64,000 nt of DNA, from assembly GCF_020405225.1 (NCBI RefSeq), contig NZ_CP084472.1:2108001-2172000 (forward strand), read 5' to 3'. The translations under genes were made by a program, and so were the position numbers. The stretch comes from Natrinema sp. DC36. Lineage in GTDB: Archaea > Halobacteriota > Halobacteria > Halobacteriales > Natrialbaceae. Shown here in pieces: positions 45,954 through 57,005 of this stretch (the first letter of the stretch is position 1; every line of letters starts with the position of its first letter). The notes beneath the pieces were generated by a model, which did no database searches, was not told where the DNA came from, and saw only the letters and a program-made list of their open reading frames with translations.

Positions 45954-46115
45954 CTGGTCAACCGGCATGCTGTGGCGCGCGCTGTCGACCGGCCGAACGA
46001 GAGTGAGGCCGGTCGATGACACTGCGCGAGGGATGAGTGAGCGAGCCTGCGAGCGAGCGAATCGGTTGGGGAGAGCGTGGCGATTCCCTGTTGCCACGAA
46101 AGCAGGACGCTTCGT
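45954..46115 (+). repeat. Dispersed repeat element, copy A
   Basis: A 162-nt block with an inverted second copy at 53198-53360, about four-fifths identical without gaps. A 10-bp perfect stem TCGACCGGCC/GGCCGGTCGA (45985-45994 and 46007-46016) lies in the first half. The second half holds the most conserved part (GCGCGAGGGATGAG through GAGCGAATCGG). It sits between the convergent MFS and SpoIIM-like genes. The rest of 45832-46298 holds two hairpins (see 46204-46250) and nothing else. Confidence 0.85.
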
Positions 46116-53197: not shown

Positions 53198-53360
53198 AAC
53201 GAAGTGCTCTGCTACCGTGGCAACACGGAATGGCCACGCCCTCCCCAGCCGATTCGCTCGCTCGCAGGCTCGTTCGCTCATCCCTCGCGCAATATCGTCT
53301 GCCACCCTCGCTAGCGCTCGGATGGCCGACAGCGCGCGCCACCGCACGCCGGTTGGCTGG
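53198..53360 (-). repeat. Dispersed repeat element, copy B (inverted)
   Basis: Reverse complement of the element at 45954-46115, about four-fifths identical without gaps. The stem of copy A is kept here by different bases: TCGGCCATCC against GGGTGGCAGA (read on minus) retains eight Watson-Crick pairs and one G-T. It fills most of the gap 53071-53488 between the DUF99 and uracil-DNA glycosylase genes; nothing else was seen there. Confidence 0.85.
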
Positions 53361-55083: not shown

Positions 55084-55805
55084 CACACCCCAGAGTGCCG
55101 CTGTAAGTCCTCCGTATAATGGCCGAACTGCGATATTTCGCTCGATCTGGACAAGTCTCGAGTTCAACTATCACGGCATCTGAAACGGGAGACGGTACTG
55201 TTAAATAGTACTGGTGTGTCACAGTTCACTGAGTGTTTTGAACGCAAGTACGTTCAATCGGTTTCGAACGCAAGTACGTTCAATCGGTTTCGAACGCAAG
55301 TACGTTCAATCGGTTTCGAACGCAGAATCGTCACTCGAGTCGATTCAGCCCACTACCGCCGTCCACCTAATTACTCTCCTGTACCCGTCTTTCGCTCGAT
55401 TTGCGCGCTCGAACCCTCGTTTCTGGTACTCCCCCACCGCCGCATCGTTACAGCGGCACCGTAGGGTGTGTGACTCCGAATACAGCGGCACCGAGGGGTG
55501 AGGAACAGTGGTATCAGCCCATCTATAAACTGCTCCGACGATATACAGCAGAAATCCGGTACGCAACTGCAGGTGAACCCGGCGAATCGGCTCTCGAGAG
55601 GAGGGATCCGAGTACGATACATCGAGATCGTACGGTCACGGACGGACAATACAGCGGAAATGCGGAGTTGTATTCCGACTATACAGCGGCAGTGAGGGGT
55701 CGAAACTCCTATCTCTACATCCTCTAAAGCATATTTAGACAATATACAGCGGCACCACGGTTCGAATGGATTAAGTGGTCCCCAACGAACCGTTCGACCA
55801 ACTGA
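55084..55805. other. Probable replication origin (oriC) with ORB-like boxes
   Basis: TTACAGCGGCACTCTGGGGTGTG occurs on the minus strand at 55084-55106. Related boxes on plus are at 55448 (CACCGTAGGGTG end), 55480, 55649, 55681 and 55744, each starting WTACAGCGGMA; a weaker one is at 55543. The inverted left box and direct right boxes bracket about 340 nt with AT-rich words and a 26-bp tandem repeat, the usual layout of archaeal origins where Orc1/Cdc6 binds. The orc1 gene starts right after the last box. No gene lies inside. Confidence 0.82.
55240..55329. repeat. 26-bp tandem repeat with internal palindrome
   Basis: Three identical copies (55240-55265, 55266-55291, 55292-55317) and a partial fourth (from 55318) of GAACGCAAGTACGTTCAATC plus GGTTTC. 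GAACG/CGTTC around CAAGTA makes each unit partly palindromic. No spacers, so it is not a CRISPR. It lies between the inverted ORB-like boxes and may be an iteron-like binding site. Confidence 0.85.
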
Positions 55806-57005
55806 ATGTCCGACTCGATGGATTACTTCGGCAGCGAAAATGAGATCTTCCGGAACAAGGAACTCCTGCAGGTCTCACACCTCCCGGACGGTGACCGGAT
55901 TATCGGCCGCGAGGACGAACTGACGAACCTCGCGAACGCGATTAAACCGGCTACGCGCGGGAACACGCCGAACAACGTTCTCGTCTACGGAAAGACGGGT
56001 ACCGGGAAGTCCCTCTGTTCGAAGTTCATCACGAATCACGCCGTCGAGCGTGCGAAGGACAACGACGTGTCGATCGGCGTCGCCTACGTCGATTGTCTCC
56101 AGGAATCGACGGAGACACAGGCCGTGCAATCGGCCGGTCATCAACTCAACGAGCAGACGGAAACGGAGATCTCGATCCCCCATTCGGGGTTGAGTACGGC
56201 CGAGTATTACCGTCGCCTCTGGCGCATCGTCGACACTCGGTACGACGTTGCGCTGATCATCCTGGACGAAGTGGACAAGATCGAAGACGACGAAATCCTG
56301 ATGCAGCTCTCGCGAGCGGTCGAATCGGGAAAACTCACCGAGAGCACGATCGGCGTCATCGGAATCTCGAACAAAGTCCGGTACAAGGACTCGCTGGACG
56401 AACGGATCAAATCGAGCCTCTGCGAACGGGAGTACGTCTTCTCTCCGTACGACGCGACACAGATCCGAGAGATTCTCCGGTCGCGCTCCGACGCGTTCCA
56501 CGAGAGCGTGCTCGAGGACGGCGTCGTCCCTCGCGTCGCCGCGCTCGCAGCCCGCGAACACGGTGACGCGCGGAAGGCGATCGATATCCTCCGATTCGCC
56601 GGCGAGATCGCCGAGGAGAACGACCGCGACGCCGTCACGGAGGACTGCGTCGATCACGCTCACGAGCGCGAAGAAACCAGTCGCCTCGCCGAACTGATTT
56701 CCAAGAGCCCGAGTCACGCGAAACTGGTTCTCGAGGCGATGGCGCTGCTCACCCAGCAAAAAGAGGGGGACAACGCACCGATAACGACGAACGAAGCGTA
56801 CGACCTCTACAGGCGATTGTGTGATCGCGATCGGTCTGAGCATCTGAAGCTCCGGCGCGTCCGAGACATCCTTTCGGAACTCGAGTTCCTCTCGATCATC
56901 GATCAGGAGCGCAAGTGGGCCGGCAGAGGGAAAGGGAACTACATGGAGAATCGGCTGATTGACGATCCGAAAGTCATCATCGCCGCCTGCAACGAATCTG
57001 ACTGA
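55806..57005 (+). CDS. orc1: Orc1/Cdc6 replication initiator
   Basis: 399 residues. AAA+ domain: Walker A YGKTGTGKSLCSKF (about residues 60-73), Walker B ALIILDEVDKIEDDE, sensor 1 IGVIGISNKVRYKDSLDERIKSSL and sensor 2 HGDARKAIDILRFAG. The C-terminal winged helix follows: HAKLVLEAMALL to IIDQERKWAGRGKGNYMENR. It should bind the ORB-like boxes immediately upstream and load MCM. Being next to the origin suggests autoregulation through the last box at 55744. Confidence 0.94.
   Translation: MSDSMDYFGSENEIFRNKELLQVSHLPDGDRIIGREDELTNLANAIKPATRGNTPNNVLVYGKTGTGKSLCSKFITNHAVERAKDNDVSIGVAYVDCLQESTETQAVQSAGHQLNEQTETEISIPHSGLSTAEYYRRLWRIVDTRYDVALIILDEVDKIEDDEILMQLSRAVESGKLTESTIGVIGISNKVRYKDSLDERIKSSLCEREYVFSPYDATQIREILRSRSDAFHESVLEDGVVPRVAALAAREHGDARKAIDILRFAGEIAEENDRDAVTEDCVDHAHEREETSRLAELISKSPSHAKLVLEAMALLTQQKEGDNAPITTNEAYDLYRRLCDRDRSEHLKLRRVRDILSELEFLSIIDQERKWAGRGKGNYMENRLIDDPKVIIAACNESD

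Follow-up and report, generated by a model that had tools for sequence, protein, structure and literature searches.

A candidate BOX/ERIC-like structured intergenic repeat in Natrinema and other haloarchaea

We describe a dispersed intergenic repeat in Natrinema sp. DC36, which we interpret, with moderate confidence, as an ancient haloarchaeal structured repeat of the BOX/ERIC-like kind, folded at the RNA level and shuffled by ectopic recombination. It is BOX/ERIC-like in its behavior, with many dispersed extragenic copies and a conserved fold; membership in a known repeat class by descent is not claimed. One strand is predicted to fold into a helix (P2) capped by a long variable stem, followed by a tandem G-A helix and then by an invariant G-rich strand. 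The window, i.e., the whole stretch of 64,000 nucleotides that was analyzed (contig NZ_CP084472.1), contains two copies, and only these two score with the covariance model (E about 1e-35 or better):

45954-46115, plus strand: copy A as first described; modelled core 45968-46110 (BLAST, covariance model)
53204-53346, minus strand: core of copy B, first described as 53198-53360 (BLAST, covariance model)

Both copies had been reported in an initial annotation, and we found them again at these coordinates and in opposite orientation, with a BLAST identity of 83% over positions 6-162. Copy A sits between convergent genes. It had also been proposed that a ten-pair stem, TCGACCGGCC/GGCCGGTCGA in copy A and TCGGCCATCC/GGGTGGCAGA in copy B, changes with its pairing kept. 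The two Watson-Crick swaps (A-U to G-C and G-C to A-U) and the single U-G pair are indeed there, and the proposal left out one broken pair in copy B, where a G stands opposite an A. The near-invariance ascribed to the GCGCGAGGGATGAG block was borne out. Elsewhere in the window, TACAGCGGCACC..GGGGTG-type repeats in both orientations were observed at 55086-55105, 55448-55500, and 55682-55764, together with a 26-nt tandem repeat at 55235-55324, upstream of a plus-strand gene (55806-57005) that reads like Orc1/Cdc6; the repeats beside this gene likely represent a replication origin.

The family is far larger than chance would allow: BLAST gave at least 49 matches in the genome (40 candidates scored), and a covariance model (R1), for which 29 plain copies were used, gave at least 112 (150 candidates scored), all of them on the 4.1-Mb contig C1. 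Large copies are split into two R1 matches, and hence matches were merged before the elements were counted, which left at least about 100 distinct elements. Thus, the further copies anticipated in the initial annotation exist, and the covariation holds when they are included. Non-chromosomal matches numbered 0 in this genome versus 27 expected; a strict chromosome-only rule was rejected, given that the 987-kb replicon of N. thermotolerans has 6 places. Along the chromosome, 45 copies lie on the plus strand and 56 on the minus strand, with no evident bias. Gene context, obtained with a codon-usage gene finder written for the purpose, could be assigned to 64 copies, of which 28 are in convergent, 30 in tandem, and 6 in divergent arrangements. 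Copies are therefore found mainly on the downstream (3') side of genes, and in the tandem arrangements both orientations are equally used (16 versus 14). Head-to-head pairs, with the 3' ends facing each other across about 27 to 170 nt, are recurrent; one of them, at site S2, apparently lies between divergent genes and is common to many species. Between the head-to-head S2 copies of one genome (G004, L157:7355-7440), we observed about 86 nt of inserted DNA bounded by inverted ends of 30 nt (CTATAGTAGCCGCTGAAAG...), which G005 also has at this site, which G026 lacks, and which is limited to two species. Many further matches to the middle of this insertion are spread over Natrinema genomes, also where the RNA repeat is lacking, and the insertion appears to belong to a separate MITE-like family.

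In the aligned copies, GCGGUGGCGCGCGCU is followed by two variable stems with GYGCGAGGGAUGAGYGA between them, by GAAUCGGYUGGGGAGGGYGUGGC, and then by a 3' part ending in GCCACGAUAGCAGGACGC. The parts of this arrangement are as follows, with coordinates referring to copy A:

45972-45976, plus strand: 5' strand (GTGGC) of outer helix P1, partner GCCAC at 46093-46097 (RNAalifold)
45978-45982, plus strand: 5' strand (CGCGC) of helix P2, partner GCGCG at 46024-46028 (covariation)
45984-46017, plus strand: hypervariable stem 1, GTCGACCGGCC / GGCCGGTCGAT (helices 3 and 4, covariation)
46024-46037, plus strand: conserved block GCGCGAGGGATGAG (aligned copies, class-wide pattern search)
46032-46063, plus strand: helix P3, GAT..ATC (covariation, including cross-family)
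46064-46080, plus strand: G-rich conserved strand GGTTGGGGAGAGCGTGG (aligned copies, class-wide pattern search)
Stem 1 loop, in some other copies: insert X1 (aligned copies)
P2/P3 junction (GCGCG/GGATGAG), in some other copies: insert X2 (aligned copies)
Stem 2 (within P3), in some other copies: insert X3 (aligned copies)

P2 (CGCGC/GYGCG) supports stem 1 and is paired in 98.4% of cells, with double changes in four of its five pairs, and stem 1 itself shows double changes in all 12 pairs of helices 3 and 4 (both in the fitted alignment described below). The stem 1 loop of copy A is GAAC-GAGA-GTGA, which contains a tandem G-A pair and corresponds to the family form GAAC-NNNN-GUGA. P3 (GAU/AUC) continues as 2-bp steps with tandem G-A pairs between them, and these G and A residues are present in 80 to 100% of copies. 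The G-rich strand hardly changes from family to family; its consensus is GGYUGGGGAGGGYGUGG. At the three fixed points listed above, hairpins of about 60 to 130 nt are inserted in some copies. P1 is paired in 89 to 97% of cells and hardly varies, and it is therefore not demonstrated; a local hairpin (46076-46081, CGTGGC, with the same GCCACG) is a rival pairing, and P1 is restricted to the Natrinema form and not kept in other families. With the quadruplex option of RNAfold, whose calibration is far from haloarchaeal intracellular potassium levels, a G-quadruplex in the G-rich strand was predicted in 0 of 39 copies versus 23 of 117 shuffled sequences. The G runs of the 46064-46080 consensus would suit a two-layer quadruplex, although RNAfold predicts none.

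The pairing was evaluated in 94 matches aligned by the covariance model. Since such a fitted alignment leans toward the model, an unfitted MAFFT alignment was counted as well. In the fitted alignment, 92.7% of the cells were paired, compared with 76.7% after shuffling and 18 to 41% in slid controls, and 415 cells were double-changed, compared with 148 after shuffling; in the unfitted alignment, double-changed cells numbered 78 versus 28. Neither count was reached in any of 500 shuffles. Among the non-Watson-Crick cells of the fitted alignment, G-U (183) was favored over A-C (52), and the selected form is therefore this strand alone. Class-wide sequences, with no model involved, gave a similar picture: the closing pair of P3 was U-A in 50, C-G in 27, U-G in 12, and C-A in 0 of 89 distinct sequences, and the pair next to it forms in 54 of 58, versus 46% expected. 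The selected molecule would most simply be RNA, with single-stranded DNA as the alternative form. The initial annotation had read the pattern as a folded RNA or structured element rather than a gene, and this agrees with the conserved pairing and compensatory changes of some 100 copies, with the tolerance of G-U over A-C, and with the covariation of the same fold in other haloarchaeal families. A coding frame is further disfavored because the copies are not of one length, varying by single bases as well as by inserted hairpins.

R1 matches were found in 41 of 61 genomes (this genome and its relatives), and copy number within the genus ranged from 0 (G011, G016, G017, and G022) to at least about 50. 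Beyond the genus, the core pattern GCGAGGGAYGA-N22-52-TCGGYTGGGGAGG occurred in 147 of 391 Halobacteria genomes, representing 45 of 86 genera, with up to 75 occurrences per genome; the exact pattern was absent from the other 244, and the reversed pattern gave 0 occurrences in all 391. What follows GUGGC in the 3' part is different outside Natrinema. The same core together with the covarying helix in other genera suggests one haloarchaeal element family. Rfam, at gathering and relaxed thresholds, gave nothing on the element except weak matches with E values of 1.9 and 6.3 (tRNAs were detected elsewhere in two loci), and there was no match in the INPHARED phages, in the IMG/VR contigs, or in three large plasmids. 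The literature that we searched on haloarchaeal repeats, MITEs, structured RNAs, and the core sequence contained no description of the element; most subscription journals were outside this search, and a prior description is possible.

Element positions are mostly inherited. The loci analyzed surround the matches. In the nearest relative (G018), the flanks at copy A are 93 to 97% identical, and 17 of 20 loci align with a locus of this genome, 16 of them with the element in both; the exception is the copy B site. At that site the relative (L107) is not empty and carries about 570 nt of unrelated DNA, i.e., a replacement of intergenic DNA. Along a 50-kb stretch, element sites recur at the same positions in four other species, with two exceptions, both in G007: a single partner of the pair is retained at site S5, and the sequence stops short of S1. 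Sites are occasionally gained or lost within the genus: Natrinema versiforme and two others lack an element at the copy A site, and S2 is filled in eight species and reduced to only 13 nt in G016, G002, and G011. Comparison of filled S2 with these 13-nt spacers, which is limited by divergence, gave no readable duplication or sharp boundary. The mobility suggested in the initial annotation is supported only in part, by this gain and loss of sites; the positions are mostly inherited, and a transposase link or terminal repeat was not found. Target-site duplications were sought as well, and within the limit set by this divergence none were found.

Stem modules are exchanged between copies as blocks. 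At shared sites, median identity was 0.98 in the core and 0.93 in the outer upstream flank, compared with 0.65 in stem 1 and 0.63 in stem 2, for which random unrelated copies gave 0.57 and 0.50, respectively. Within the genome, stem 1 similarity and stem 2 similarity between copies were uncorrelated (Mantel r=-0.03, p=0.67), and the 3' tail and both flanks did correlate. For instance, L013b and L097 are alike in stem 1 (0.93) and not in stem 2 (0.09), and L072 and L094 are alike in stem 2 (0.92) and not in stem 1 (0.24). Furthermore, the replaced stems of the nearest relative resemble non-orthologous copies at 0.81 to 0.95 and not the copy at the same site. In one head-to-head pair (L021/L021b, compared with L120), the stem 1 sequences of the partners are apparently swapped in the relative, with the middle keeping its orientation. 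No two of 59 copies had an identical stem 1 (median nearest neighbor, 0.85). Frequent simple conversion would be expected to leave identical stem pairs, so the simple model is a poor fit, and new stems may have to come from some further source or from other species.

Several other explanations were weighed against this evidence. One of them, possible though rather doubtful in our judgment, is a host-functional multicopy noncoding RNA or protein-binding tag in transcript ends, each copy of which is selected: a cellular protein would bind the G-A helix and the G-rich strand, acting for example on stability or termination, and the stems would need pairing only. The core, 98% identical at shared sites while the near flanks drift, the single-strand blocks conserved across families, the covariation of P2 and P3, and the preference for gene 3' sides are all in line with such a role, whereas the element looks dispensable, its copies varying from 0 to >50 within one genus and its exact pattern missing from 244 of 391 genomes. 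Besides, the tandem sites lack an orientation bias, which is odd for a function at the 3' end of mRNA. Action at the DNA level, as in REP/BIME, in which gyrase, a nucleoid protein, or a recombinase recognizes the single strand that supercoiled or replicating DNA extrudes, would account for that lack of bias, for the placement between gene ends, including convergent pairs, and for the recurrent head-to-head pairs. We nevertheless consider it improbable, since G-U is tolerated and A-C avoided and since the G-A mismatches are conserved on one strand only, which indicates an RNA-like single strand rather than a double-strand palindrome.

Origins from known classes of mobile elements fit less well. 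The element is small, palindromic, and multicopy, and haloarchaea are rich in PATEs and IS1341-type elements (PMC3119063), as a nonautonomous IS200/IS605 derivative (PATE), a RAYT-driven REP, or a TnpB omega RNA might lead one to expect; such an identity is very unlikely, however, because Y1_Tnp (PF01797) had 0 matches in this genome and in the copy-rich genomes G004, G006, G020, G021, and G027 and was uncorrelated with copy number in 29 genomes. A RAYT-driven REP was rejected on the absence of the REP-associated Y1 transposase from the genome. Of 11 TnpB-domain matches, 10 are on other contigs and the remaining one, on C1 at 1446133, adjoins no copy; the adjacency to a tnpB end that an IS605 PATE or an omega RNA would have is thus missing, and no sharp element boundary was seen. 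An ordinary MITE with terminal inverted repeats, moved by a DDE transposase, is hardly credible. GTTCRATAG ... CTAYTGAAC can be seen by eye at the ends of some copies, and with its weakly conserved flanks the element measures 200 to 300 nt, but own flank pairs match no better than mismatched pairs from other copies (inverted-match scores of 7.55 versus 7.57), and filled and empty sites, whose divergence limits the reading, gave no readable duplication.

We therefore return to the ancient structured repeat shuffled by ectopic recombination. Copies would first have spread as a nonautonomous element; those present today would be fixed repeats that lie for the most part downstream of genes. Between them, stems would be swapped by ectopic recombination or gene conversion, with the conserved blocks serving as homology. 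The element is probably transcribed within neighboring transcripts, and selection would maintain the fold, most simply as RNA that acts, or is tolerated, in transcript ends. The even orientation at tandem sites counts against this reading too, as do the failure to find identical stem 1 pairs and the negative search for an insertion boundary, target duplication, terminal repeat, or transposase. It is conceivable, and we hold this only tentatively, that the repeats form a class-wide noncoding RNA family with a cellular role, which would reach about 100 fixed copies per genome and combine an invariant functional core with hypervariable stem cassettes replaced at each locus by recombination, giving a mosaic RNA repertoire. 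If our interpretation is correct, haloarchaea own an abundant structured intergenic repeat that is missing from Rfam and without description in the literature searched, in which the stems are renewed block by block and the core and location stay the same. It would offer a natural system for ectopic gene conversion in polyploid archaea and a large number of covarying examples from which a fold with stacked tandem G-A pairs could be solved, and the GAGCGAGCGA-type sequence that annotators meet again and again between haloarchaeal genes would be explained.

Among known repeats, QMITE2 of Coxiella burnetii is short, lies mainly in 3' untranslated regions, and has a transcript that folds (PMC10969869); it possesses terminal inverted and direct repeats, which were not found here. 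The PATEs, SMRs, and MITEs of Haloquadratum walsbyi are transposase-free multicopy elements defined by terminal palindromes or inverted repeats, with strain-polymorphic insertions, and its SwitchRepeats are sites where two strains carry different repeats (PMC3119063). Our element, in contrast, shows neither of these, and most of its positions are inherited. With REP/BIME and their RAYT it shares extragenic location 3' of genes, few divergent sites, and head-to-head pairs, whereas here the RAYT-type transposase is absent and the structure is longer and strand specific. BOX of Streptococcus pneumoniae is a dispersed modular intergenic repeat for which an RNA fold is predicted and whose conserved ends flank a variable middle, and ERIC elements may carry optional internal inserts. 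ERIC, of enterobacteria, is a palindromic intergenic repeat with a copy number highly variable between related genomes, and BOX elements are treated in the same work (PMC10969869). The present repeat is likewise palindromic, intergenic, variable in copy number, and equipped with optional inserts, although it differs from ERIC in its helix of repeated tandem G-A pairs and in a single G-rich strand that does not vary, and no terminal repeat was found. Its likeness to BOX lies in being dispersed and modular with a predicted fold, and a sequence relation is not claimed. The differences are that entire stems are replaced at sites that do not move, with the core blocks left in place, and that the repeat occurs class-wide in haloarchaea.
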